In this document: one piece after another, positions 6,223 through 19,561 of the stretch
Position numbering within the stretch: position 1 is the first letter of the stretch
Layout: each line of letters begins with the position of its first letter
Assembly (NCBI RefSeq): GCF_003853705.1
Contig: NZ_QTQI01000012.1
Coordinates: forward strand, 155,801 to 219,800
DNA from: Burkholderia sp. Bp8992
Lineage (GTDB): Bacteria > Pseudomonadota > Gammaproteobacteria > Burkholderiales > Burkholderiaceae
DNA length: 64,000 bases
Direction of reading: 5' to 3'
Notes under the pieces: generated by a model
What the model saw: only the letters and a program-made list of their open reading frames with translations
Databases searched by the model: none
Told to the model about the DNA's origin: nothing
Program-made: the position numbers and the translations under genes

Positions 6223-8115
6223 TTACTGCAGGTGCTGTTCGGGCGTACGCACGTACACGCGCAGCAGTTCCTCGTTGTCGCCCGGGCGGGCGCCCGTCCA
6301 GAACAGTTTCCATTCGTTGCCGGGCGCCGGATCGACGGCGCGCACGCCCTGGACGATCATCCACGTGCAGCGCGTCGACTTCGCGTCGTCGATCGGCGTG
6401 TGCTGGATGCCGGAGAAGTAGTACAGCATCGGCGCTTCCGATTCGCCGAGCCCGTGCAGGCTCGCCATGCAGTCGCCGTCGGTCCATTCGAGCGCGAGAT
6501 GCGCGTTCAGGTCGTCGAACACCGAGCGATAGCTCTTCGCGACGTCGAGCCACGGCAGCAGCAGTGTATAGACGAGGCCCCAGGCGACGAGTGCGCCGGC
6601 GCCCCACGACAGCGCGCCGCGCCAAAGGCCCGTCGTGCGCAGCTTCGGCAGCAGCGTCAGCCAGCCGACGGTCAGCGCGAGCGCGCCGATCACGAGCGCG
6701 GGCTGGATCGGCATCGTCCAGTCGAGCGGCAGCCAGCGGCCGAGCAGTGCGAGATCCGCGCGCGACGCGGCCGGATCGGCCATCACGGCCCAGATCGCCC
6801 ACGCGAGCGCGACGGTCGTGCCGAACAGCACGCGGCTGAAGTAGTCCCACGCGAGATGCAGCCGGCGCGGCAGGCGTTCGATCGCCTGCGCGGCGACCAG
6901 CGCGAGCGGTGCGAAGAACGGCAGGATGTAGAGCTGGCGCGACGTCGCGGACACTTGCAGCACCACGAGCCCGATACCGGCGAACAGCACCGGCAGCGCG
7001 ATGCGCGGCGTGCGCCAGTCGCGCCATGCGCCGCGCGCGAGGGCGACGATCGCGAGCGGCGCGACCGGGAAGCCGACGAGCAGGAACGCGCGCAGGATAA
7101 AGAACGGCTTGTCGTTTTCCGCGCCGAGTTCGGGGACGGAGAAGCCGAAGAACCGGCCGACGTTGTTGTTCCAGAACCACGTCATGAACAGCGGTTCGGA
7201 GCGCAGGAACAGTGCGGTCGGCCAGATCAGCGCGAACGGCGCGAACGCGAGCGCAGCGACGCCGAGCGCGCGCGCGAACGAGCGGGTGCGGCAGGCCGGG
7301 TAGAGCACCAGCGTGCAGATGAGCGTGGCCGCGAACACGAGCGGCACGAACAGCCCTTTCGTCATCAGCGCGATGCCGACGCCCGCGCCGAACATCGGCG
7401 CGGCCCAGCGGCCCGACGGCCGGACCGGCAGCCCGTGGCGCATCTGCTGTGCGCGCGCGACGTGCTGCATCACGAGTTCGAGCAGCCCGCAGAAGCCCAT
7501 CGCCGTGCCGGCGAACAGCGCGACGTCCGTCATCATGTCATGCACGTGCTTGATGACGACGAGCGTGCCCGCGCTGAGCACGACGGGGCCGAGCACGCGC
7601 AGGTCGAACCAGCTGTCCGCACGGCTGGCGACGCGCGCCGCGCGCGCGATGAAGCCGAATGCGAGCGCGGCGAACAGCGCGCTCGCGAGCCGCGCCGCGT
7701 CGTGCAGCGGCATCACGCGCTGCAGCAGCCACGCGAGGCTCGTCGCGACCCATGCGTAAAGCGGCGGCTTTTCCATGAACGGCAGGCCGGCATTGGTCGG
7801 CACGACGAAGTCGCCGGTCTCGAGCATGTGCTGGATGATGCCGAACGTGTAGGTTTCGTCCTGCTTCCACGGATCGTGGCCGAGCACGCCCGGCAGCGTG
7901 TACGCGCAGACCAGCGCGGCGACGAACAGCCACGCCCGCCAGCCGAGCAGGGCCGAGCGGTCGCGCACGGTGCGGGGGGCGGCGGTCGACGCCACGACGG
8001 GCGTGCCGGCGGCGTCGAGCGTCGCGGCGGTGTCGGCGTCGGCGGTCGAACGGGTGAGCTGGGCCGGCGCGGGCACAGACGTGCGTCGCCGGCTGGGCGC
8101 TGCGGTTCCAGGCAT
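6223..8115 (-). CDS. GT39-family (ArnT-like) membrane glycosyltransferase
   Basis: The protein is about 630 residues with roughly a dozen transmembrane helices. An early WKQDETY motif carries the acidic pair used by PMT/ArnT enzymes, and a short soluble C-terminal domain follows. GT39 enzymes move a sugar from a polyprenyl-phosphate donor onto an acceptor on the periplasmic face of the inner membrane; here the acceptor could be lipid A or another envelope molecule. I choose the ATG at 8115. A GTG at 8175 would add 20 poorly conserved residues, and neither start has a strong ribosome-binding site. No arn operon is nearby, so sugar and acceptor remain unknown. Confidence 0.8.
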   Translation of the reverse strand: MPGTAAPSRRRTSVPAPAQLTRSTADADTAATLDAAGTPVVASTAAPRTVRDRSALLGWRAWLFVAALVCAYTLPGVLGHDPWKQDETYTFGIIQHMLETGDFVVPTNAGLPFMEKPPLYAWVATSLAWLLQRVMPLHDAARLASALFAALAFGFIARAARVASRADSWFDLRVLGPVVLSAGTLVVIKHVHDMMTDVALFAGTAMGFCGLLELVMQHVARAQQMRHGLPVRPSGRWAAPMFGAGVGIALMTKGLFVPLVFAATLICTLVLYPACRTRSFARALGVAALAFAPFALIWPTALFLRSEPLFMTWFWNNNVGRFFGFSVPELGAENDKPFFILRAFLLVGFPVAPLAIVALARGAWRDWRTPRIALPVLFAGIGLVVLQVSATSRQLYILPFFAPLALVAAQAIERLPRRLHLAWDYFSRVLFGTTVALAWAIWAVMADPAASRADLALLGRWLPLDWTMPIQPALVIGALALTVGWLTLLPKLRTTGLWRGALSWGAGALVAWGLVYTLLLPWLDVAKSYRSVFDDLNAHLALEWTDGDCMASLHGLGESEAPMLYYFSGIQHTPIDDAKSTRCTWMIVQGVRAVDPAPGNEWKLFWTGARPGDNEELLRVYVRTPEQHLQ

Positions 8116-8262
8116 GGAAAAGATCTCGGGTCGAGTCGAGCGGTCCGCGACTTGGGCAGGACCGATAAGGGCCACATCAGGGTGGCGAAGTCCAAGCGTT
8201 TATGACGCCTGTCTGATTGCCCGCTAGTAGAGCACGGAACTATTACGGATGTTTACTGAAAC

Positions 8263-8343: not shown

Positions 8344-9105
8344 TTACCGGCCGCCGCCGACGTCGAGCAGGGCGCCCGTCGTGTAGGACGCCGCGTCGCC
8401 GAGCAGCCAGACGACCGCTTCGGCGATCTCCTGCGCTTCGCCCGCGCGGCCGAGCGGCGTTTGCACGCCGAGGCGGGCCGCCCGGCCCGGCTGGCCGCCG
8501 CTGGCGTGAATATCGGTCTCGATCAGGCCGGGGCGCACCGCGTTGACGCGCACGCCGTGCGGGCCGAGTTCCTTCGCGAGGCCGATCGTCAACGAGTCGA
8601 CCGCGCCTTTCGACCCCGCATAGTCGACGTATTCGTTCGGCGAACCGAGCCGCGACGCGATCGACGACACGTTGACGATCGCGCCGCCGCGGCCGCCACG
8701 GTCGATGGACAGCCGGCGCGCGGCTTCGCGGGCGCACAGGTACGCACCGAGCACGTTGGTGTCGAACATCCGCCGCAGCCGGTCGACCGGCATGTCGGCG
8801 AGCGGCATCGACGGCGCGACGATGCCGGCGTTGTTGACGAGCGCGTCGAGGCGTCCGAACGCGGCCATGACGGTGTCGAACATCGCGATGACGTCCGCCT
8901 CGTTCGCGACATCGCCCGCGACGATGCACGCGCGGCCGCCCGCGTCGCGCACGGCTTGCGCGGTGAGTTCGGCCGCTGCCGCGTCGCGTGCGTAATTGAT
9001 GCCGACGTCCCAGCCGCGTTCGGCCGCGAGCACGGCGGTCGCGCGGCCGATGCCGCGGCTCGCGCCGGTGATGAGGACGGCCTTGCGATCGGACGGTGCG
9101 GTCAT
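8344..9105 (-). CDS. Short-chain dehydrogenase/reductase (SDR)
   Basis: The 253-residue protein is a classical cytoplasmic SDR. The cofactor motif TGASRGIG lies at about residues 13-20, NNAG near 91-94, the catalytic serine in NVSSIAS, and the active-site Tyr and Lys in YAGSK. The C-terminus ends with the usual T-G-LLDVGGGR block. The substrate cannot be read from sequence; close relatives are often annotated glucose 1-dehydrogenase or 3-oxoacyl-ACP reductase without proof. It precedes the GT39 gene on the same strand with a 228-base spacer, so it is probably a separate unit. Confidence 0.88.
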   Translation of the reverse strand: MTAPSDRKAVLITGASRGIGRATAVLAAERGWDVGINYARDAAAAELTAQAVRDAGGRACIVAGDVANEADVIAMFDTVMAAFGRLDALVNNAGIVAPSMPLADMPVDRLRRMFDTNVLGAYLCAREAARRLSIDRGGRGGAIVNVSSIASRLGSPNEYVDYAGSKGAVDSLTIGLAKELGPHGVRVNAVRPGLIETDIHASGGQPGRAARLGVQTPLGRAGEAQEIAEAVVWLLGDAASYTTGALLDVGGGR

Positions 9106-9127
9106 GGCGTGCGGTTTCCGGTGACGA

Positions 9128-9709
9128 TTACTTCGCGGCGTCGGGCGCCCACTTGTCGCGGGCGGGCGGCTGGTAGCGGCGCAGCCGCTCGATCAGCGCG
9201 ACGGGCTCGGATTCGACACACAGCGCGTCGAAATAGGCCGGACGCATGAAGCCTTCGTCGACCGTATGGCGCAGCAGCGCGATCAACGGATCGTAGAACG
9301 AATCGATGTTGTAGACCGCGACGGGCTTGCGGTGATAGCCGAGCTGCGCCCACGTGTAGACCTCGAAGAGCTCTTCGAGCGTGCCGGCGCCGCCGGGCAT
9401 CGCGACGAACGCGTCGGAGAGGTCGGCCATCATCTTCTTGCGGTGGTGCATGTCGGGCACGACGTGCAGTTCCGACAGCCCCGTATGGCCGACTTCCTTG
9501 TCGACGAGCAGTTCCGGGATCACGCCGACCGCATGGCCGCCGGCAGCCATCACTTCGTCGGCGATCACGCCCATCAGGCCGACTCGGCCGCCGCCGTAGA
9601 CGAGCGTGAGGCCCGCATCGACGAGCGCGCGGCCGAATGCGCGCGCGGCGTCGGCATAGACGGGCCGCACGCCGGGCGACGAGCCGCAGTAAACGCAGAC
9701 TGCCTTCAT
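9128..9709 (-). CDS. LOG-family nucleotide 5'-monophosphate phosphoribohydrolase
   Basis: The 193-residue protein has the LOG signature MPGGAGTLEELFEVYTWAQLG and the N-terminal CVYCGSSPG and GGGRVGLMG blocks. LOG enzymes cleave the ribose phosphate from cytokinin nucleotides or other purine 5'-monophosphates; the bacterial enzyme may act on AMP-like nucleotides. The ATG at 9709 overlaps the TetR stop as ATGA, so the pair is translationally coupled. The family is often mis-annotated as lysine decarboxylase, an activity these proteins lack. Confidence 0.9.
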   Translation of the reverse strand: MKAVCVYCGSSPGVRPVYADAARAFGRALVDAGLTLVYGGGRVGLMGVIADEVMAAGGHAVGVIPELLVDKEVGHTGLSELHVVPDMHHRKKMMADLSDAFVAMPGGAGTLEELFEVYTWAQLGYHRKPVAVYNIDSFYDPLIALLRHTVDEGFMRPAYFDALCVESEPVALIERLRRYQPPARDKWAPDAAK

Positions 9710-10464
9710 TGCTTGGGATCCTTGGCGGGTGCCTGCCCGGTGACGACGGGGCTGTCGGCGGGGCGCGGCGAGCCGTCGCGCGGCGGCAGGTAGTCGGTGA
9801 ACTGGCGCTTCGGCAGCTTGCCCGAGACCAGGTCGTCGAACAGCTGGCGCGAACGGCCGCGCAGGTACGGCGCCATCACGGAGATCACGTGCATGCTGAC
9901 CTGGTGCAGTTCCTCGCGGATCGCGTCCTGGTCGTTGTATTTGCGCGGGTGCATCACGTACTGATACGACAGCCAGTAGGTCGAGATCACGGCCATGTTG
10001 GTGGCAATGACTTCGATCTCGGCGGGCGTGGCGACCATTTCCGCGTCGGACACGAGCAGCTCGCACATGTCGCGCGCGAAGCGCACCTTGTGGCTGATGA
10101 TCTGCTTGAAGTGCGTCTCGAGCGTGCGGTTGCGGGCGAGCAGGTCGTTGAGGTCGCGATACAGGAACCGGTAGGTCCACATGAAATCGGCCATGTACTG
10201 CAGGTACGACCAGGTTTCGTCGATCGTCGGACGGTGATCTTCAGGGAAGCGCAGCCGCCGTTCGATCTGCTGCTCGAACTGCGCGAAGATGCTGTTGATG
10301 ATGTCGTCCTTGTTGCGGAAATGGTAGTACAGGTTGCCTGGACTGATTTCCATTTCCTCGGCGATCGTCGTGGTCGTGACGTTCGGCTCGCCGATCTCGT
10401 TGAAGAGTTTCAACGACAACTCGAGAATCCGTTCGCGGGTGCGGCGGGGAGGTTTCGCTTCCAT
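9706..10464 (-). CDS. TetR/AcrR-family transcriptional regulator
   Basis: The 252-residue protein has an N-terminal TetR helix-turn-helix (about residues 9-55: RERILELSLKLFNEIG, then TTTIAEEMEISPGNLYYHF). A long helical ligand-binding domain follows, rich in aromatic residues (WSYLQYMADFMWTYRFLYRDL), and the tail is Pro-rich and probably disordered. It is upstream of, and overlaps, the LOG gene, so it may regulate its own two-gene transcript. The effector is unknown. The promoter should lie in the 205-base spacer 10465-10669, where I recognise no clear operator. Confidence 0.88.
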   Translation of the reverse strand: MEAKPPRRTRERILELSLKLFNEIGEPNVTTTTIAEEMEISPGNLYYHFRNKDDIINSIFAQFEQQIERRLRFPEDHRPTIDETWSYLQYMADFMWTYRFLYRDLNDLLARNRTLETHFKQIISHKVRFARDMCELLVSDAEMVATPAEIEVIATNMAVISTYWLSYQYVMHPRKYNDQDAIREELHQVSMHVISVMAPYLRGRSRQLFDDLVSGKLPKRQFTDYLPPRDGSPRPADSPVVTGQAPAKDPKQ

Positions 10465-10669
10465 GTCGTCCGGCCCTGTGTGTGCCGGACTGGCGGGCGC
10501 TGCAATCGATGCTGCGTGATTCGTCCGGCGCGGGTTGCTGTTCTATGTCTAGCGGACGATTATAAACCGGGGTTTCGCCCCACCGGGGCATTTCGTGATC
10601 GCGGCCCCGCGCGGCGCATGGTGCAGCGCCGCACGCGGGCGGCGCGCGACGCGTCCGCCCGATACCCGT

Positions 10670-11206
10670 CTAGAAGCCGAGCCAGTGTGCGACGACCGGG
10701 CCGAGCACGAAGCCCCACGTGGTCACGCACGCGAACAGCGCAACCGTCACGGCCGCGCTGCCGAGATCCTTCGCGCGCTTGGAGAGTTCGTGGCGCTCGA
10801 GCGAGATGCGGTCGATCGCGGCCTCGACGCTCGAGTTCAGCAGCTCGACGATCAGCACGAGCAGTACCGAGCCGATCAGCAACGCGCGCGACGCGGCCGG
10901 CACCGGCGCGAACGCACCGATCGGGAGCATCAGCGCGGCGAGCGTGAGTTCCTGGCGAAACGCGCTCTCCTCGCGGATCGCGACGCGAAAGCCGTTCAGC
11001 GAATGCTTGAGGGCGTACCACGCGCGCGTGATGCCGCGGTGGCGCTTGTACGGGTTCGGCGGCAGCGGCGACAGCTGGTCGTCGGGGCCGAGCGGCTCGT
11101 GCGCGTGCACGTCCGCTTCGGCGTGCGGCTCTTCCTCGTCGAACGGGCGGTGCCGTTGCGGCGTGGAGGCAGGGGGCGGGGTCTTGTCGTTCAGGTCTCG
11201 TTTCAA
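10670..11206 (-). CDS. dgkA: Diacylglycerol kinase (DgkA family)
   Basis: The C-terminal ~125 residues form a prokaryotic diacylglycerol kinase: an amphipathic ALKHSLNGFRVAIREESAFRQE segment, three membrane helices, and the catalytic ELLNSSVEAAIDR...KRAKDLGSAAV motif. The enzyme phosphorylates diacylglycerol to phosphatidic acid at the inner membrane. A ~50-residue acidic, Pro/His-rich extension precedes the domain and is unusual for the family. No ATG is available; the TTG at 11206 overlaps the glycosyltransferase stop (TTGA) and gives 178 residues. As third gene after PlcP-like and GT4 genes, it could recycle the diacylglycerol they handle. Confidence 0.87.
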   Translation of the reverse strand: MKRDLNDKTPPPASTPQRHRPFDEEEPHAEADVHAHEPLGPDDQLSPLPPNPYKRHRGITRAWYALKHSLNGFRVAIREESAFRQELTLAALMLPIGAFAPVPAASRALLIGSVLLVLIVELLNSSVEAAIDRISLERHELSKRAKDLGSAAVTVALFACVTTWGFVLGPVVAHWLGF

Positions 11207-12237
11207 ACGGCGGCACCTTCGGCTGGCGAGTACGCGGTCTTCGGCAGCGGCTTCAGATGCGACGCGAACTGCTCGGATGCCGCGCGCCACGAGAAGCGTT
11301 CCGCCCACGCGCGCGCAGTCGTGCGTTCGATCTTCAGCGCTTCGAGGCAGGCTTCCTGCAGGTCCTCGTGCATCGCGCCCGCGTCGCCGCCGCTGAGCAC
11401 GTCGATCGGGCCCGTGACGGGATACGCGGCCACCGGCGTACCGCAGGCGAGGGCTTCGAGCAGCACGAGGCCGAACGTGTCGGTGCGACTCGGGAACACG
11501 AACACGTCGGCCGCAGCATACACCTTTGCAAGCTCGCCCTGTGACAGCACGCCGAGATAGTTCGCCTCCGGATAGCGCGACTTCAGCTCCGCGAGCGCGG
11601 GGCCTTCGCCCGCGACCCACTTCGAGCCGGGCAGGTCCAGGCGCAGGAACGCCTCGACGTTCTTCTCGATCGCGACGCGGCCCACGTACAGGAAGATCGG
11701 CCGCGCGGTGTTGAGCACCTTCGAATCCATCGGCCGGAAGATGTCGAGATCGACGCCGCGGGTCCACAGCACGACGTTCGTGAAGCCGAATTTCTCGAGG
11801 TCCTGCTTGACGACCGGCGTCGGCGCCATCACCGCGAGCGACGGGCCGTGGAACCAGTGCAGGAAGCGATAGGTCGCCGCCAGCGGGATGCCGAAGCGCG
11901 CCTGCACGTATTCCGGAAAGCGCGTGTGGTACGCGGTCGTGTACGGCAGCTTGCGCGAGCGCGCGTAGCGCCGCGCGGCGAGGCCGAGCGGGCCTTCGGT
12001 CGCGATGTGCAGCGCATCGGGTGCGAACGCATCGATCCGCGCGCGCAGCTTGCGGTACGGCAGGATCGACAGGCGGATCTCGGGGTAGGTCGGGCAGGGT
12101 ATCGTGCGGAATTCCAGCGGCGTCAGCAGTTCGACGCGGTGGCCGAGCGCGGTGAGTTCGCGCGACGTGCTCTTCAGCGTGCGCACGACGCCGTTGACCT
12201 GCGGTTCCCACGCGTCGGTGACGATCATGATCTTCAT
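11203..12237 (-). CDS. GT4-family glycosyltransferase, candidate diacylglycerol glycosyltransferase (Agt-like)
   Basis: The 344-residue protein has the two-domain GT-B layout: an N-terminal acceptor domain beginning KIMIVTDAWEPQVNGVVRTL, as in SqdX/Agt/alpha-mannosyltransferase relatives, and a C-terminal nucleotide-sugar domain with VGRVAIEKNVEAFL and PSRTDTFGLVLLEALACGTPV (the E-x7-E motif). Between a PlcP-like phosphoesterase gene (29-base gap) and dgkA (overlapping), the best inference is glycosylation of diacylglycerol to a glycolipid. The family assignment is firm. The lipid acceptor is inferred from context and from reports that plcP and agt are neighbours in other proteobacteria. A mannosyltransferase for another glycoconjugate is the alternative. 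Confidence 0.83.
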   Translation of the reverse strand: MKIMIVTDAWEPQVNGVVRTLKSTSRELTALGHRVELLTPLEFRTIPCPTYPEIRLSILPYRKLRARIDAFAPDALHIATEGPLGLAARRYARSRKLPYTTAYHTRFPEYVQARFGIPLAATYRFLHWFHGPSLAVMAPTPVVKQDLEKFGFTNVVLWTRGVDLDIFRPMDSKVLNTARPIFLYVGRVAIEKNVEAFLRLDLPGSKWVAGEGPALAELKSRYPEANYLGVLSQGELAKVYAAADVFVFPSRTDTFGLVLLEALACGTPVAAYPVTGPIDVLSGGDAGAMHEDLQEACLEALKIERTTARAWAERFSWRAASEQFASHLKPLPKTAYSPAEGAAV

Positions 12238-12266
12238 CGCGGCTTTGTCCTGTAGGTAGGGTTGTG

Positions 12267-13205
12267 TCAGGCAGTGGCCTTGGCCTTGCGCGACGCGGTC
12301 TCCGACGGTGCGGTGCGCATCACCGTCCAGTAGACGATCTTCAGTTCGCCTTCCATCGTTTCGACGAGTGCGGACAGGCTTTCGACCCAGTCGCCGTCGT
12401 TGCAGTACAGCACGCCGTCGATGTCGCGGATCTCGGCCTTGTGGATGTGGCCGCACACGACGCCGTCGCAGCCGCGGCGGCGCGCCTCGTCGGTCATCAC
12501 GGTCTCGAACTGCGAGATGAAGTTGACCGCGTTCTTGACCTGGTGCTTCAGGTACTGCGACAGCGACCAGTACTGGAAGCCGAGCCGGCTGCGGATCCGG
12601 TTGAACCAGCGGTTCAGCACGAGGATCAGCGTGTACAGCGTGTCGCCGAGGTACGCGAGCCATTTCGCGTGCTGGATCACGCCGTCGAACAGGTCGCCGT
12701 GCACGATCCACAAACGTTTGCCCGCGAGCGTCGTGTGGAACGCCTCGCCGCGCACCTGGATGTCGCCGAACGCGAGATCGCAGAACTGCCGCGCGCCTTC
12801 GTCGTGGTTGCCGGGGATGTAGACGACCTGCGTGCCCTTGCGCGCCTTGCGCAGGATCTTCTGCACGACGTCGTTGTGCGCCTGCGGCCAGTACCAGCCC
12901 TTCTTCAGCTGCCAGCCGTCGATGATGTCGCCGACGAGGTACAGGTATTCCGAATCGTTGTGGCGCAGGAAGTCGAGCAGGTACGGCGCCTGGCAGCCGC
13001 TCGAGCCGAGGTGGATGTCGGACAGCCAGATGGTGCGGTACCGATGGGTGGACGGGTCGGGGTCGTCGTGCTGCGTGGTGTGCGCGGCAGGCGGTTCTTG
13101 CGACGCCAGGCCATCGGTGACAGCCGAGCCGGACAGGAAGGCGGTGGCGGCGCGGGCGCCGATAGGGTGACGGAACAGGGAGGTCGCGGACGTTTTCTGG
13201 CCCAT
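12267..13205 (-). CDS. plcP: PlcP-like metallophosphoesterase (candidate Pho-regulated phospholipase C)
   Basis: The 312-residue protein is a calcineurin-like phosphoesterase with all five metal motifs: SDIHLG, GDIIDGW, GNHDEG, VHGD and GHIHK. It also shares blocks such as GCQAPYLLDFLRHND and KGWYWPQAHNDVVQK with proteins annotated as UDP-2,3-diacylglucosamine pyrophosphatase-like, the group that holds the rhizobial and marine PlcP phospholipases C. PlcP releases diacylglycerol from membrane phospholipids during phosphate starvation. About 50 low-complexity residues precede the domain, so the exact start is less sure. A strong Pho-box match lies 47 bases upstream, and glycosyltransferase and kinase genes follow. 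LpxH-type lipid A hydrolase is the alternative, but the neighbours argue against it. Confidence 0.78.
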   Translation of the reverse strand: MGQKTSATSLFRHPIGARAATAFLSGSAVTDGLASQEPPAAHTTQHDDPDPSTHRYRTIWLSDIHLGSSGCQAPYLLDFLRHNDSEYLYLVGDIIDGWQLKKGWYWPQAHNDVVQKILRKARKGTQVVYIPGNHDEGARQFCDLAFGDIQVRGEAFHTTLAGKRLWIVHGDLFDGVIQHAKWLAYLGDTLYTLILVLNRWFNRIRSRLGFQYWSLSQYLKHQVKNAVNFISQFETVMTDEARRRGCDGVVCGHIHKAEIRDIDGVLYCNDGDWVESLSALVETMEGELKIVYWTVMRTAPSETASRKAKATA

Positions 13206-13251
13206 GCATGACTCGCGCCGGTTGACATTACCGGCATTCCGCCATGCGGGC

Positions 13252-13269
13252 GTGACTGTGCCATGACAG
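13252..13269 (-). promoter_or_regulatory. Pho box upstream of plcP
   Basis: Read on the minus strand the site is CTGTCATggcaCAGTCAC. It fits the PhoB direct-repeat consensus CTGTCAY-N4-CTGTCAY at 13 of 14 positions, with exact 4-base spacing. It ends 46 bases before the plcP ATG and points toward it. A convincing -10 at the canonical distance is not seen (CGGAAT at best). Confidence 0.72.
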
Positions 13270-13430
13270 TCACGAGACGTTCTTATTACGACCGTTGCAG
13301 GGTGTTTAGCAGTGAATCGATGGGCGTTGCGTAGCCTGCCGCACGGAACGGCCGACGGTTGTGCGGCAAGGCCGTCGGGCAGGGTGACGGAAGGCGGTAC
13401 GAGCGGTTTTCGTCTGGCGAATGCGGCGCG

Positions 13431-13937
13431 TCAGCGTGGTATGGCGACGACGCGTGTGCGCGCGATCCGGTCGTGCGGGAACTGGCGATCGCCATGCAGC
13501 CGGGCAGCGCCGGCCCAGATGACGACCCAGGCGGCCGTGAGCGCGAGCGTGACGGGCACCGACAGGCCGAGGAGCGGATGCAGCGCGAGCGGCGGCAGGA
13601 ACCACAGCCAGCCGAGCGCATAGCGGACGAGCGCGTGGCCGGCGCCCAGCGGCCGGCCGCTCGACGATTCGAGGCGCAGCCGCCAAGTCTTCATCGGCAG
13701 TGTCTGGCCGCCGTGGGTCCAGAACCACACGAAGTACGCGCCGACGACGAGCGCGATCCACGCGGCGAGCAGGTTGTGATGGACGAGGCCGTTGCGTTGC
13801 TGCGTCGCGAGGCTGAACGCGAGCCCGGCGAAGAACACGACGCCGAACAGCAGCACGCCTTCGTAGAGCAGCGCGGCGAGACGCCGCCGCACGGACGGTG
13901 TGGTGGTTGTGGTGTCGGGTGCGCGGGCGTTCGCCAC
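13431..13937 (-). CDS. RDD family membrane protein
   Basis: The 168-residue protein begins with a short polar N-terminus followed by SVRRRLAALLYEGVLLFGVVFF, the RDD-type start (Arg then acidic residues at the first helix). It has three to four transmembrane helices and a GGQTLPMKTWRLRL loop characteristic of the family. RDD proteins are inner-membrane proteins of mostly unknown role; some act in ion exchange. It is the last gene of the sigma factor-DUF3619-DUF3106-RDD operon, six bases after the DUF3106 gene. Confidence 0.85.
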   Translation of the reverse strand: MANARAPDTTTTTPSVRRRLAALLYEGVLLFGVVFFAGLAFSLATQQRNGLVHHNLLAAWIALVVGAYFVWFWTHGGQTLPMKTWRLRLESSSGRPLGAGHALVRYALGWLWFLPPLALHPLLGLSVPVTLALTAAWVVIWAGAARLHGDRQFPHDRIARTRVVAIPR

Positions 13938-13943
13938 GGCCGC

Positions 13944-14705
13944 TCAGGAGCCCTTGAACAGCGAGGGGGCGTCGGCGGGCGATACGGGCGCCACGGCGGG
14001 CGGTGCGGATGCGGTGCCGGCCGTCGACGAGGCCGGCACCGGCTGCGCGGCGGCGCCGGCCGACGCGGGCGCCGGTGCGGCGGCCGCGCCGCTTGCCGGA
14101 TGTTCGTGCGAATTGACGAGGCGACGGACGTCACGGTCGGCGACGGTCGGCGGTGCGCTGACGACGCTCGGCTTGCGGCGGCGCTCGGCGGCCGCGAGAC
14201 GTTCCTTCTGTTCCTCGGGGAGCTGCTGATAGGCCTTCCACGCGCGCTCGCGCGCCTGCGCGGACAGCTCCTTCGCGCTCTGGTAGTTCTCGCGCGCGAC
14301 GCGGCGCTGCTCGGGCGTCATCTTCGCCCATTCGGTCATCCGGTCCTGCAGGCGTTTCTGGTCATCGGGCGTCAACTTCGCGAAACGCGATGCGATCTTC
14401 AGCCATTTTCGCTTGCGGGCGTCGCTGAAGCCGTCCCATTGGTCGGCGAACGGCGCGAGAGCCGCGTGCTGGGCCGGCGTGAGGCGCGCCCACGACAGCG
14501 GGCCGGTGGCGGCCGGCAGCGGCAGGGGCAGCGGCGGGAGTTCGGTGGTCAGCCCGGTCGCGGCCGAGGCCGGCGCGGCGGGGCTGACGGCCGCGACGGT
14601 GGTCGTCGCGGGGGCCGGGTGGAATCGGGAATACGTGGCGACGTAGGAAACGGCGATCGCAATCACGCATCCGAAAAATACGGCCAGGCCGCGCTTCTGA
14701 CTCAC
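13944..14705 (-). CDS. DUF3106 domain-containing exported or membrane-anchored protein
   Basis: The 253-residue protein starts at a GTG (14705) preceded by GAGGGG. One N-terminal hydrophobic segment (about residues 7-24) is followed by an Ala/Pro-rich linker, then a DUF3106 core with repeated L-P-Q/E-R-R units (for example RLTPAQHAALAPFADQW and KLTPDDQKRLQDRM). The C-terminus is Ala/Pro-rich and probably disordered. The core resembles small periplasmic Spy/CpxP-like helical repeats, which is only a resemblance. It lies between DUF3619 and RDD genes in an ECF sigma operon, so it may be part of an envelope-stress response. Confidence 0.8.
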   Translation of the reverse strand: MSQKRGLAVFFGCVIAIAVSYVATYSRFHPAPATTTVAAVSPAAPASAATGLTTELPPLPLPLPAATGPLSWARLTPAQHAALAPFADQWDGFSDARKRKWLKIASRFAKLTPDDQKRLQDRMTEWAKMTPEQRRVARENYQSAKELSAQARERAWKAYQQLPEEQKERLAAAERRRKPSVVSAPPTVADRDVRRLVNSHEHPASGAAAAPAPASAGAAAQPVPASSTAGTASAPPAVAPVSPADAPSLFKGS

Positions 14706-14731
14706 CCGTGCGATCCCCTCGTTATTGTCTG

Positions 14732-15157
14732 TTAGTGAGCGCGCGAAAGATACGCGTTGAACCCGTGATCGAGATACGCGTTGAGCGGCAGGTCGTCGCT
14801 GAGCATCGCCGCGTCGATGTCGGCGAGTTCGGCGGTGCGCTGCATGTCTTCCCAGTAGGCGATGCCGACGAGCCCCGCGAGCAGCAGCGCCAGCGGCCAC
14901 GCGCGCAGCAGGCGGCGCGCGAACGACGCCTGCGGGCGGCTCGCGGGAGCCGTGCCGTAGGCGCCGGCCGCGCCGGCGAAGGCCGGCACGAACACCGGCG
15001 CGGTCGCGGCTTCGGGCTTCTTGCGCGCGAGCGCGGCCCGGCGGGCGACGGCCAGGCGGTCGGTGGTCGCGGCAGGCAGGGCGGCCGTGCGCTCGTCAAG
15101 CGCGCGGCGCACCTTCAGCGCGAATTCGTATTCTCGATTTGCGGGAGCGGAGCTCAT
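14732..15157 (-). CDS. DUF3619 family protein, possible membrane anti-sigma factor
   Basis: The 141-residue protein has a cytoplasmic-looking N-terminal half (REYEFALKVRRALDERTAALP), an Ala/Pro-rich linker, one transmembrane helix (about residues 85-103, LLRAWPLALLLAGLVGIAYW) and a short C-terminal tail ending in LPLNAYLDHGFNAYL. Its start overlaps the stop of the sigma factor gene (ATGA), so translation is coupled one-to-one. That position and single-helix topology are what one expects of a cognate anti-sigma factor. No zinc-binding anti-sigma HXXXCXXC motif is present, so the role is inferred from context. Confidence 0.82.
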   Translation of the reverse strand: MSSAPANREYEFALKVRRALDERTAALPAATTDRLAVARRAALARKKPEAATAPVFVPAFAGAAGAYGTAPASRPQASFARRLLRAWPLALLLAGLVGIAYWEDMQRTAELADIDAAMLSDDLPLNAYLDHGFNAYLSRAH

Positions 15158-15717
15158 AGCGTGATTCCTTTGGCCTTGAGCGCTTGCGCCAGTGTATGGG
15201 TGGCCCGCGAGCAGTGCGTCTTCACGCTGCCCTCGGAGCACCCCATTGCGGCGGCAGTCTCGGCGACATCCATATCTTCCCAATAACGCATCAGGAACGC
15301 TTCCCGTTGACGCGCCGGAAGCTTCTGGATTTCTTCGTCGATCAGGGCCAGAACCTGCTCTCTTTCGAGGCGGTGCTCGCTGCTCTCGACGCCCGCGTTG
15401 TCGTCCGCGGATTCGAGTGTTTCGAGCGGGTCGAAGTCTTCGTCGTCGGTATTGTTCAGCGACGAGAAGAGCGTGACCCAGGTGTTGCGGACTTTCTGCC
15501 GACGAAACCAGTCGTGGACCGTATTCTGCAGGATCCGTTGAAAAAGCAGCGGCAATTCGGCCGCCGGCCGGTCGCCGTACTTTTCGGCGAGCTTGATCAT
15601 CGCGTCCTGCACGATGTCGAGCGACGCATCGTCGTCACGCACGGCGTACGCGGCCTGCTTGAACGCGCGCCTTTCGACGCCCGCCAGAAAGTCGGCGAGT
15701 TCCTTGTCTGATGCCAT
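15154..15717 (-). CDS. RNA polymerase sigma factor, ECF (sigma-70 family)
   Basis: The 187-residue protein has a region 2 (AAYAVRDDDASLDIVQDAMIKLAEKYGD, then LPLLFQRILQNTVHDWFRRQKVR), an acidic linker (about residues 90-110) and a region 4 helix-turn-helix (LPARQREAFLMRYWEDMDVAETAAAMGCSEGSVKTHCSRATHTLAQAL). It should direct RNA polymerase to a small regulon and probably to its own promoter. The ATG at 15717 is the natural start. It heads a four-gene operon and is divergent from ilvB. Confidence 0.9.
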   Translation of the reverse strand: MASDKELADFLAGVERRAFKQAAYAVRDDDASLDIVQDAMIKLAEKYGDRPAAELPLLFQRILQNTVHDWFRRQKVRNTWVTLFSSLNNTDDEDFDPLETLESADDNAGVESSEHRLEREQVLALIDEEIQKLPARQREAFLMRYWEDMDVAETAAAMGCSEGSVKTHCSRATHTLAQALKAKGITL

Positions 15718-16072
15718 TCCGTGAAGGTATGCGCTGCGGGCCGCTGCGTGGTGAAAAAGGTCGAAAAATTTCGTAAAACCCGCGGATGCTATCAAATTTT
15801 CGTGCCGCTTGGCACCGGGGCGGGCGCTGCACGTTGCGCGCGAGCCGCGGCAGTGGGGCGCCGGGCGGCGTGCATGATGCGGTGCGGGATATTTTGCTTG
15901 ACGACCCAATCGCGACCCGCTATCGTCAGCGATTCGCAACATGAAGTGATGGTCTCATTTGAGGCTGGCCCAAGAAGCCCGCCCTTCAAACTGGACGCGC
16001 CGCTTGAACCCGAGCCACAAGCCCGGCAGAGAGCACCCGATCAATTTTTTGCCGAAAATTCGAAAGGTCAAA
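15718..16072. other. Divergent intergenic region between the sigma factor gene and ilvB
   Basis: The region holds the promoters of both genes. It is relatively AT-rich near 15755-15805. The ilvB promoter lies at 15898-15926, giving a transcribed leader of about 140 bases. I searched that leader for a short ORF rich in Ile, Val or Leu codons and for a terminator hairpin and found neither, so classical attenuation of ilvB is not supported. Confidence 0.6.
15898..15926 (+). promoter_or_regulatory. Sigma-70 promoter of ilvB
   Basis: A TTGACG -35 box (15898-15903), a 17-base spacer and a TATCGT -10 box (15921-15926). Transcription should begin near 15933. Confidence 0.6.
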
Positions 16073-17836
16073 ATGAACATGCCCAGCGCGGAATTCTCCA
16101 CGTCGGAACCCCTTTCCCCTCCCGATAGCGACTCCATCGGCGGCACCGTGCTGATGAAGGCACTCGCCGACGAAAACGTCGAATTCATCTGGGGCTACCC
16201 CGGCGGCTCGGTTCTCTACATCTACGACGAGCTGTACAAGCAGGACAAGATTCAGCACGTGCTGGTGCGCCATGAACAGGCGGCCGTGCACGCAGCCGAT
16301 GCGTATGCGCGTTCCACCGGCAATGTCGGCGTCTGTCTCGTGACGTCGGGCCCCGGTGTCACCAACGCGGTGACCGGCATCGCAACGGCCTACATGGATT
16401 CGATCCCGATGGTCGTGATCAGCGGCCAGGTGCCGACTGCCGCGATCGGCCAGGATGCTTTCCAGGAATGCGACACCGTCGGCATCACGCGTCCGTGCGT
16501 GAAGCACAACTTCCTCGTGAAGGACGTGCGCGACCTCGCGGAAACCGTCAAGAAGGCGTTCTACATCGCCCGTACCGGCCGTCCGGGCCCGGTGCTGATC
16601 GACATCCCGAAGGACATCTCGAAGACGCCGTGCCAGTACGAGCCGGTCAAGAGCGTGTCGCTGCGTTCGTACAACCCCGTCACGAAGGGCCATTCGGGCC
16701 AGATCCGCAAGGCCGTGTCGCTGCTGCTGACGGCCAAGCGCCCGTACATCTACACGGGTGGCGGCATCATCCTCGCCGATGCGTCGCGTGAGCTGAACCA
16801 GTTCGCGGACCTGCTCGGCTACCCGGTCACGAACACGCTGATGGGCCTCGGCGGCTATCGCGCGTCGGACAGGAAATTCCTCGGCATGCTCGGCATGCAC
16901 GGCACCTACGAAGCGAACATGGCGATGCAGCACTGCGACGTGCTGATCGCGATCGGTGCCCGCTTCGACGACCGCGTGATCGGCGATCCGGCGCACTTCG
17001 CGTCGCGTCCGCGCAAGATCATCCACATCGATATCGACCCGTCGTCGATCTCGAAGCGCGTGAAGGTCGACATCCCGATCGTCGGCGACGTGAAGGAAGT
17101 GCTGAAGGAGCTGATCGAGCAGCTGCAGACGGCCGAGCACGGCCCCGACACCGAGGCGCTCGCGCAATGGTGGAAGGACATCGAGGGCTGGCGCTCGAAG
17201 GACTGCCTGAAGTACGACCGCGAAAGCGAGATCATCAAGCCGCAGTACGTGGTGGAGAAGGCGTGGGAGCTGACGGACGGCAATGCGTTCGTGTGCTCGG
17301 ACGTCGGCCAGCACCAGATGTGGGCTGCGCAGTTCTACCGATTCAACAAGCCGCGTCGCTGGATCAACTCCGGCGGCCTCGGCACGATGGGCTTCGGCCT
17401 GCCGGCAGCGATGGGCGTCAAGATGGCGCACCCGGACGACGACGTGCTGTGCATCACGGGCGAAGGCTCGATCCAGATGTGCATCCAGGAACTGTCGACC
17501 TGCCTGCAGTACGACACGCCCGTGAAGATCATTTCGCTGAACAACCGCTATCTCGGCATGGTCCGCCAGTGGCAGCAGATCGAATACAGCAAGCGCTATT
17601 CGCATTCGTACATGGATGCGCTGCCGGATTTCGTGAAGCTCGCCGAAGCGTACGGCCATGTGGGCTTGCGGATCGAAAAGACCTCGGATGTGGAGCCGGC
17701 GCTGAAGGAAGCGCTGCGCCTGAAGGACCGCACCGTGTTTCTCGACTTCCAGACCGATCCGACCGAAAACGTCTGGCCGATGGTACAGGCCGGCAAGGGC
17801 ATCACCGAGATGCTGCTCGGATCGGAAGACCTGTAA
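16073..17836 (+). CDS. ilvB: Acetolactate synthase, large (catalytic) subunit
   Basis: The 587-residue enzyme condenses two pyruvates to 2-acetolactate, or pyruvate plus 2-oxobutyrate to acetohydroxybutyrate, the first common step of Val, Leu and Ile synthesis. The catalytic glutamate region is RHEQAAVHAADAYAR, the FAD/central domain follows, and the thiamine diphosphate motif is GEGSIQMCIQELSTCLQY near residue 470. The ATG at 16073 gives the usual beta-proteobacterial length. It is followed by ilvH (113-base gap) and ilvC. Confidence 0.97.
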   Translation: MNMPSAEFSTSEPLSPPDSDSIGGTVLMKALADENVEFIWGYPGGSVLYIYDELYKQDKIQHVLVRHEQAAVHAADAYARSTGNVGVCLVTSGPGVTNAVTGIATAYMDSIPMVVISGQVPTAAIGQDAFQECDTVGITRPCVKHNFLVKDVRDLAETVKKAFYIARTGRPGPVLIDIPKDISKTPCQYEPVKSVSLRSYNPVTKGHSGQIRKAVSLLLTAKRPYIYTGGGIILADASRELNQFADLLGYPVTNTLMGLGGYRASDRKFLGMLGMHGTYEANMAMQHCDVLIAIGARFDDRVIGDPAHFASRPRKIIHIDIDPSSISKRVKVDIPIVGDVKEVLKELIEQLQTAEHGPDTEALAQWWKDIEGWRSKDCLKYDRESEIIKPQYVVEKAWELTDGNAFVCSDVGQHQMWAAQFYRFNKPRRWINSGGLGTMGFGLPAAMGVKMAHPDDDVLCITGEGSIQMCIQELSTCLQYDTPVKIISLNNRYLGMVRQWQQIEYSKRYSHSYMDALPDFVKLAEAYGHVGLRIEKTSDVEPALKEALRLKDRTVFLDFQTDPTENVWPMVQAGKGITEMLLGSEDL

Positions 17837-17948
17837 CGGCGCGACGCGCGCTTGAGCCCGATGCGGCCGCCTTCACGAAAGGCGGTGCGGCACCGGGCGG
17901 CGCGCGGCGCGAGTGAATCGACACGGACACATTCTGGAAGAAGCGAAC

Positions 17949-18440
17949 ATGAGACACATCATTTCCGTCCTGCTGGAGAACGAACCGGGCGCGCTGTCGC
18001 GCGTGGTCGGCCTGTTCTCCGCACGCGGCTACAACATCGAAACCTTGACGGTGGCGCCGACCGAAGACCAATCGCTGTCGCGGCTCACCATCGTTTCCAT
18101 TGGCTCCGACGACGTGATCGAACAGATCACGAAGCATCTGAACCGCTTGATCGAGGTGGTGAAAGTGGTGGACCTGACCGACGGTGCACACATCGAACGC
18201 GAGCTGATGCTGATCAAGGTACGTGCAGTGGGCAAGGAGCGCGAAGAAATGAAGCGGATGTCGGACATTTTCCGCGGCCGCATCATCGACGTGACCGAAA
18301 AGACCTACACGATCGAATTGACGGGCGCGAGCGACAAGCTCGACGCATTCATCCAGGGGCTGGACGCGGGCGCGATCCTGGAGACCGTGCGCACCGGCAG
18401 CTCCGGCATCGGGCGCGGCGAGCGCATCCTGAAGGTGTGA
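17949..18440 (+). CDS. ilvH: Acetolactate synthase, small (regulatory) subunit
   Basis: The 163-residue protein begins RHIISVLLENEPGALSRVVGLFSARGYNIETL, an ACT domain that binds valine and confers feedback inhibition on the catalytic subunit. The C-terminal ALS-SS-C domain ends in SSGIGRGERILKV. Full family length. It follows ilvB and precedes ilvC in one operon. Confidence 0.97.
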   Translation: MRHIISVLLENEPGALSRVVGLFSARGYNIETLTVAPTEDQSLSRLTIVSIGSDDVIEQITKHLNRLIEVVKVVDLTDGAHIERELMLIKVRAVGKEREEMKRMSDIFRGRIIDVTEKTYTIELTGASDKLDAFIQGLDAGAILETVRTGSSGIGRGERILKV

Positions 18441-18526
18441 TGCCGAAATTGCCAGACAGGCACGCCGGGTGCGCCGTCATGTCCCGGCCCGCAGTACTCC
18501 ATCCGAACGAATTGTTGAATTTTTGA

Positions 18527-19561
<1,035 letters not shown>

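Follow-up and report, generated by a model that had tools for sequence, protein, structure and literature searches.

The pairing of a PlcP-type phospholipase C with the glycosyltransferase Agt is described for Pseudomonas aeruginosa, Agrobacterium, roseobacters, SAR11, and Methylosinus, and deletion of plcP-agt is reported to cause the loss of glucuronic acid diacylglycerol (GADG) (PMC9239053). The P. aeruginosa genes plcP-agt1 (PA3219-PA3218) have a predicted Pho box, and PlcP is raised at low phosphate; monoglucosyldiacylglycerol (MGDG) is reported to require agt1 and plcP, and GADG to require agt2 (PMC8528852). Here, we describe a related locus, plcP-agt-dgkA, in a 64,000-nucleotide (nt) stretch of Burkholderia sp. 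Bp8992 (contig NZ_QTQI01000012.1), referred to as the window, in which plcP and agt are followed by the gene for a diacylglycerol (DAG) kinase. The kinship of the window PlcP and Agt to characterized enzymes places plcP-agt in the known system; the pair is not new, and the operon-linked DAG kinase is the sole departure from the characterized loci. Among the open-licence papers searched, we found none joining dgkA to plcP-agt. The three genes probably constitute a PhoB-controlled lipid-renovation operon, through which PhoB would jointly switch on lipid stripping, glycosylation, and DAG salvage.

The P. aeruginosa locus likewise has plcP followed directly by agt, and the window proteins are 53% identical to the PA3219-type PlcP over 236 residues and 52% identical to Agt1, encoded beside PlcP, over 336 residues. 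Unlike the window, it has no adjacent dgkA, and P. aeruginosa possesses a second glycosyltransferase, Agt2, whereas a search of G001 found no second close Agt (next-best match, 42 bits). G001 is the nearest genome of our set (7.6 Mb, 94% complete, sharing 53% of sampled 31-mers with the window). The Sinorhizobium meliloti PlcP is 51% identical over 258 residues and is separated from LpxH together with the window PlcP in the tree, but no agt or dgkA is annotated within 5 kb of it (one record). The reference loci of both species were drawn from a plasmid collection. The P. aeruginosa blocks carry plcP-agt, one being flanked by annotated azoR3 and cyaB, and the gene order, with the PA numbers that we take these neighbors to have, identifies the block as the PA3219-PA3218 region; in the S. 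meliloti record, the neighbors of plcP include an N-acyl-homoserine lactone synthase gene and a gene for a LuxR protein. Two P. aeruginosa plasmid records (L357 and L358) bear the plcP-agt block together with apparently usual chromosomal neighbors, which is either a captured chromosome segment or an assembly matter. In the same analysis, the two reference PlcP proteins are 47% identical to each other, and 46% is reported for PA3219 and S. meliloti PlcP (PMC8528852). In Pseudomonas putida BIRD-1, PlcP and the kinase DagK also respond to inorganic phosphate (Pi), but the account of that strain describes no operon with agt (PMC5082522).

In the window, plcP and agt are separated by 29 nt, and the agt stop codon overlaps the TTG start codon of dgkA by 4 nt (Table 1). 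All three proteins score above the Pfam cut-offs, with 39 bits for Metallophos (PlcP), 86 bits for Glyco_transf_4 (Agt), and 109 bits for DAGK_prokar (DgkA). These results confirm the initial annotation, which had described three closely spaced or overlapping minus-strand genes for a metallophosphoesterase, a family 4 glycosyltransferase (GT4), and a DAG kinase; its interpretation of the pathway is partly supported. The closest named PlcP relatives (97%) belong to Burkholderia sp. D-99, B. arboris, and Burkholderia sp. LMG 13014, which we take to be members of the cepacia group. In the counts below, the order is that of G001 in the genome set, which we infer to be Burkholderiales.

Table 1. 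Features of the plcP-agt-dgkA locus, given as positions in the window
Feature	Position	Strand	Description
plcP	12267-13205	minus	312 aa; predicted PlcP-type phospholipase C, metallophosphoesterase superfamily; ~54 aa N-terminal to the conserved core
agt	11203-12237	minus	344 aa; predicted GT4 diacylglycerol glycosyltransferase, Agt/GTcp group
dgkA	10670-11206	minus	178 aa; integral membrane diacylglycerol kinase of the DAGK_prokar family; start codon TTG
agt stop/dgkA start overlap	11203-11206	minus	TTGA
DgkA N-terminal extension	11039-11206	minus	56 aa; proline-rich, mildly acidic, fast-evolving, in frame
Pho box CTGTCATGGCACAGTCAC	13252-13269	minus	predicted site, 46 nt 5' of plcP ATG
20-bp block GTAATAAGAACGTCTCGTGA adjoining Pho box	13270-13289	minus	conservation equal to that of the box in 32 aligned rows

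The order survey covered 160 genomes, 83 of them with a plcP match at an E value of 1e-5 or better. The evenly drawn set, termed drawn below, holds the best 79 of 91 plcP matches, 12 fragments or weak matches (E value of 1e-35 or worse) being omitted, and the named set holds the 80 best-matching named plcP loci and, consisting of best matches, is biased toward close relatives of the window. On one strand, plcP and agt are neighbors in 36/79 drawn loci and in 73/80 named loci, and the full plcP-agt-dgkA order occurs in 11/79 (four families by code) and 58/80, respectively. A stricter start criterion retains all three genes in 55 of the 80 named loci: Burkholderia 13/13, Paraburkholderia 18/19, Caballeronia 6/6, Ralstonia 2/2, Polynucleobacter 5/8, and Cupriavidus 3/6 (genera as titled), where the remaining three Cupriavidus loci fail solely on the inferred domain start, so that all six, including one from C. 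necator A5-1, have the three genes in this order. The three-gene order was not found in the Thiobacillus, Lautropia, and Sheuella rows of the named set, and six of its loci end too early for the order to be judged. A conserved gene order and a conserved Pho box, which the initial annotation had proposed to look for across Burkholderiales, were both found.

Related arrangements occur within the order and beyond it. One genome of the order (G068) has plcP-GT4-dgkA. Another, of 1.3 Mb (G156; L054, 2233-6124), has plcP, an olsB-like gene, and dgkA about 0.5 kb further on; the OlsB-like acyltransferase reaches 169 bits, under the cut-off of 350, and acyltransferase-like and PAP2 genes are divergent. 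No DAG glycosyltransferase lies between plcP and dgkA in G156, a GT4-like open reading frame (ORF; 88 bits) being 3.3 kb off on the other strand, and the arrangement fits DgkA as a DAG sink. In the phylum survey of 180 genomes, plcP (E value of 1e-30 or better) was present in 55 and dgkA in 88. Adjacent plcP and dgkA were seen in three genomes besides G001 and G032, whereas about 0.026 adjacencies within 2 kb would arise by chance in the 29 genomes that carry both genes and do not belong to the order. The kinase comes first, as dgkA-plcP-agt, in G246 and G223 (L350 and L351), from one genus of another class, and G272 (L352), also outside the order, has plcP-GT4-dgkA.

Two further neighborhoods were noted. 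In G142 (L053, 4774-5988), the place of agt after plcP is taken by a family 28 glycosyltransferase gene encoding an MGDG_synth domain, likely another way to glycosylate DAG. On a Mitsuaria plasmid (L360, 4028-7094), plcP lies directly before the polyphosphate kinase gene ppk1.

The predicted Pho box upstream of plcP, CTGTCATGGCACAGTCAC, matches 12 of 14 consensus positions and is the top-scoring site of the window, so the Pho box of the initial annotation is present as a site, with PhoB binding predicted. With two mismatches allowed, the window contains one match; shuffled versions average 0.16, and since 15 of 100 shuffles also give at least one match, the box within the window alone is suggestive only. 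In G001, the strict pattern occurs once, at the plcP promoter (reversed control, 0), and the relaxed pattern occurs at 36 sites versus 7 for the reversed control, including a tandem pair located 56 and 88 nt 5' of pstS (PstS, 528 bits). Of 29 relaxed-site loci read by their downstream translation, the two before pstS were the only ones at which we recognized a Pho gene, the others being judged without a library search. A site matching at least 11 of 14 positions precedes plcP in 84 of 158 loci (480 nt examined; L136 too short and excluded) versus 1.9% of background windows, and in 25 of the 79 drawn loci, counts that are not independent because many rows are close kin. In ten Burkholderia rows (L112-L121), the box keeps its register at 45-46 nt from the plcP start codon and scores 10-12. 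The footprint across 32 aligned rows spans about 40 conserved bp and includes the box and the 20 bp upstream, GTAATAAGAACGTCTCGTGA. Mean identity is 87% in the box and 62% in the remainder, but conservation alone fails to single out the box because the 18 bp immediately upstream reach 91%. A scan for sigma70-like promoters found none in 10400-13500, a result without weight since none was found for plcP either. In another genome, G070 (L046, 5029-6123), plcP lies directly upstream of pstS.

The initial annotation had warned that the phosphoesterase is easily mislabeled as LpxH, and the warning is right, since all three reference records (one from S. meliloti, two from P. aeruginosa) label the PlcP gene "UDP-2,3-diacylglucosamine diphosphatase." The metal-ligand motifs D..H, GD..D, GNHD, H.D, and GH.H are all present, and D63, H65, D93, N133, H134, H169, H253, and H255, presumably the metal ligands, are invariant in 33 aligned rows. 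The protein scores 33.6 and 35.1 bits with the LpxH NCBIfam models, below the respective cut-offs of 190 and 134, and G001 encodes a separate LpxH (232 bits). LpxH lies above cut-off in 39 of 41 genomes of the order (202-314 bits); the PlcP proteins of this set score 34-52 bits with the LpxH models in 14 longer rows and 22 bits in one fragment. In a 113-row tree, LpxH forms one side of a branch with a support of 100, with GNHD in 84/84 PlcP rows and GNRD in 29/29 LpxH rows. The LpxH search pattern for this tree allowed R or H in GNxD; two of 31 LpxH loci (L299 and L301) did not fit and were omitted, as were PlcP rows with a stop or fewer than 220 residues, and five of the 80 named loci were included. 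In a quick tree, the common ancestor of the window, P. aeruginosa, and S. meliloti PlcP spans 72 rows and zero LpxH (SH-aLRT 81). The phylogeny thus sets the phosphoesterase apart from LpxH, contrary to the outcome that the initial annotation had named as refuting. By analogy with its characterized relatives, we consider it a PlcP that would hydrolyze phosphatidylethanolamine (PE) or phosphatidylglycerol (PG) to DAG.

The Agt/GTcp group is characterized by the motifs GRVAxEKN and FPSxTDTFG and by a residue set mutated in the SAR11 GTcp (PMC8231724). The window Agt has both motifs and 15/15 of these residues, including the His104-Asp256 dyad, and in this respect resembles GTcp of Candidatus Pelagibacter HTCC7211 and Agt of Agrobacterium. 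Of 106 neighboring Agt proteins scoring 350 bits or more, 104 contain FPSxTDTFG and 96 contain GRVAxEKN (V or I), and in the phylum draw, 21 of 27 plcP loci that were checked have a same-strand ORF with FPSxTDTFG after plcP. Judging from characterized relatives, the window enzyme presumably acts as a UDP-sugar:DAG glycosyltransferase. Sugar specificity is not readable from the sequence, and any exact sugar named for the window Agt is conjectural; GTcp is reported to accept three UDP-sugars, and a Pseudomonas homologue UDP-glucose only (PMC8231724).

The window DgkA matches the E. coli-type DgkA structure (PDB ID 3ze3) with 97.9 bits and is identical to the solved chain at 59 of 112 positions. 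The residues E28, E69, N72, E76, K94, and D95, whose E. coli numbering and catalytic roles we assume, are all conserved. The window gene differs in that it shares a locus preceded by a Pho box with plcP and agt and encodes a 56-residue N-terminal tail; to our knowledge, E. coli dgkA is not part of a plcP-agt-type operon. The initial annotation had regarded the kinase as an addition, which does not hold in G001, where the operon dgkA is the only DAGK_prokar gene found and the soluble kinase family DAGK_cat (PF00781) gave one partial match of 23.0 bits, just below the cut-off of 23.6. DAGK_prokar is encoded once in 8 and twice in 3 (G077, G129, and G153) of the 11 drawn genomes that show the three-gene order. 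Being the only such kinase found, dgkA may serve housekeeping too.

All ten Burkholderia rows use TTG as the start codon within the 4-nt overlap, and GTG or ATG is found at the same offset in several rows of Paraburkholderia, Caballeronia, and Trinickia; this recurrence across relatives supports the TTG start. In rows of other relatives, the first dgkA start is further downstream. Of the acidic N-terminal extension described in the initial annotation, the tail itself is real and the acidity only mild, with 11 D/E versus 7 K/R and 12 P in the first 56 residues. The nonsynonymous rate (dN), compared in six equal-length rows, is 0.016-0.110 in the tail versus 0.008-0.019 in the DgkA domain over five comparisons with similar synonymous rates (dS) and an intact frame, where one of the five (L113) is little different; the sixth row, G001, is too similar to the window for a difference to be judged. 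The tail is long only in Burkholderia and close genera and short in Cupriavidus, Ralstonia, and Bordetella metagenome-assembled genome rows. By eye, the patch PFDE/PFDD recurs in Burkholderia, Paraburkholderia, and Caballeronia rows, and EPLGPDD/EPLSPDD recurs in Burkholderia, Caballeronia, and Trinickia rows. On these comparisons, we regard the tail as a real, lineage-specific, fast-evolving, and poorly conserved stretch.

The proposed lipid-renovation operon builds on the protein families, the active-site residues, the tight spacing, the conserved Pho box and gene order, and the recurrent linkage of dgkA to plcP. At low phosphate, phosphorylated PhoB would bind the Pho box, and the three genes would be transcribed together. 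PlcP would then hydrolyze PE or PG at the inner membrane, yielding DAG and a phosphorylated head group, and Agt would move glucose or glucuronate from a UDP-sugar to DAG, yielding a phosphorus-free glycolipid. DAG would be the shared intermediate, and DgkA the only other DAG-using enzyme of the operon. It may phosphorylate the DAG unused by Agt to phosphatidic acid, so that a DAG build-up is avoided, and through its product the acyl chains could re-enter phospholipid, allowing the pathway to run back. In E. coli, dgkA null mutants are reported to accumulate about 20-fold more DAG, which is lethal in osmotically challenging environments (PMC8027125), and in P. putida BIRD-1 both DagK and PlcP are enriched on Pi depletion (PMC5082522). 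Salvage of surplus DAG thus appears the likeliest role of DgkA.

Several observations weigh against this reading. The linked dgkA is absent from 25 of the 36 drawn plcP-agt pairs and from beside the P. aeruginosa and S. meliloti plcP genes, and the kinase is therefore not needed for the basic pathway. Outside the order, the best sites before dgkA-plcP-agt match 7/14 (L350) and 8 (L351) positions, and no Pho box was found there. The tested P. aeruginosa Agt1 has neither strict motif, with GRLATEKN and FPSLTDTYG instead, so that the motifs mark a subgroup rather than function and are not essential. Two of the checked E. coli DgkA positions are changed in the window protein (A14 is L, A29 is S). 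In the BIRD-1 study, DagK is not listed among the proteins that the regulatory mutant loses, although the discussion of that study terms the set PHO-dependent (PMC5082522). For Paraburkholderia xenovorans at low phosphate, a replacement of PE by ornithine lipids is stated as "data not shown," and that statement mentions no DAG glycolipid (PMC7814305). Finally, a single clade of the strict three-gene kinases is not rejected in the careful tree (approximately unbiased [AU] test, p 0.45), and the linkage cases within the order are not independent, since one origin can explain the operon kinases. Adding the f21 and f26 arrangements to the clade test gives p values of 0.046 jointly and of 0.34 and 0.19 singly. 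A quick tree had suggested several origins, but since the careful tree did not reject one clade, we do not claim that dgkA was recruited repeatedly and independently in the order. The dgkA rows comprised 15 named loci picked for spread and 60 hand-picked dgkA regions, 9 of which rows (L235, L242, L239, L245, L250, L096, L221, L243, and L204) were dropped from the careful tree for long branches or duplication.

Among the rival explanations, dgkA could be a housekeeping passenger, the sole DAG kinase of the cell, placed behind plcP-agt by chance and expressed independently of phosphate, its DAG coming from periplasmic glucan or lipid A modification. E. coli DgkA is reported to perform such salvage (PMC8027125), dgkA occurs in 127 of the 160 genomes of the order and the three-gene order in just 11, and the single DAGK_prokar gene of G001 and of eight of these genomes agrees with the idea. 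We nevertheless consider it unlikely, if well short of negligible, because the 4-nt overlap recurs across genera with differing start codons and plcP and dgkA are again linked, in different arrangements, in genomes outside the order; housekeeping and Pho-linked roles of dgkA are compatible and can both be true. That DgkA acts on another lipid alcohol, its link to PlcP not running through DAG, is very improbable: Gram-positive DAGK_prokar members do include kinases with other substrates, but the identity to the E. coli-type chain and the link to plcP, whose relatives yield DAG, argue for a DAG kinase.

The two remaining rivals concern the lipid products. The glycolipid might serve another purpose, as a constitutive membrane or anchor lipid rather than a phosphate-sparing substitute, and the 74 of 158 plcP loci without a site of at least 11/14 are in favor of this. 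The box kept in register in ten Burkholderia rows, the strict motif found once in 7.6 Mb, and the related plcP directly before pstS (L046) speak against this purpose, which we regard as improbable. A role of the phosphoesterase as LpxH in lipid A synthesis, as assigned by annotation pipelines, is the least credible: the weak similarity to the LpxH models stays below both cut-offs, and with the separate LpxH of G001, the tree split, and GNHD instead of GNRD, we rejected it.

Returning to the PhoB-controlled operon as the preferred reading, the locus suggests that Burkholderia and close genera replace lipids to spare phosphate, by means of genes that annotation pipelines label as lipid A synthesis. 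PlcP yields free DAG, an excess of which harms E. coli, and the same operon encodes a DAG-removing enzyme, a point hardly treated in the literature consulted. The plcP-agt-dgkA operon looks like a lipid swap with a built-in return valve, by which stripped lipid could become phospholipid again. A more tentative extension, which is possible but on balance doubtful, is a reversible DAG hub: Burkholderia and close genera would have placed their only DAG kinase under PhoB with PlcP and Agt, and the balance of Agt to DgkA, perhaps tuned by the tail, would apportion glycolipid and phospholipid.

Around the locus, Rfam gave zero matches in window positions 9000-19000, and three terminators were predicted versus 2.0 expected, to which we give no weight. 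A 650-residue protein encoded at 6223-8175 has no Pfam match and a weak ArnT-like NCBIfam match of 51 bits (cut-off, 567).

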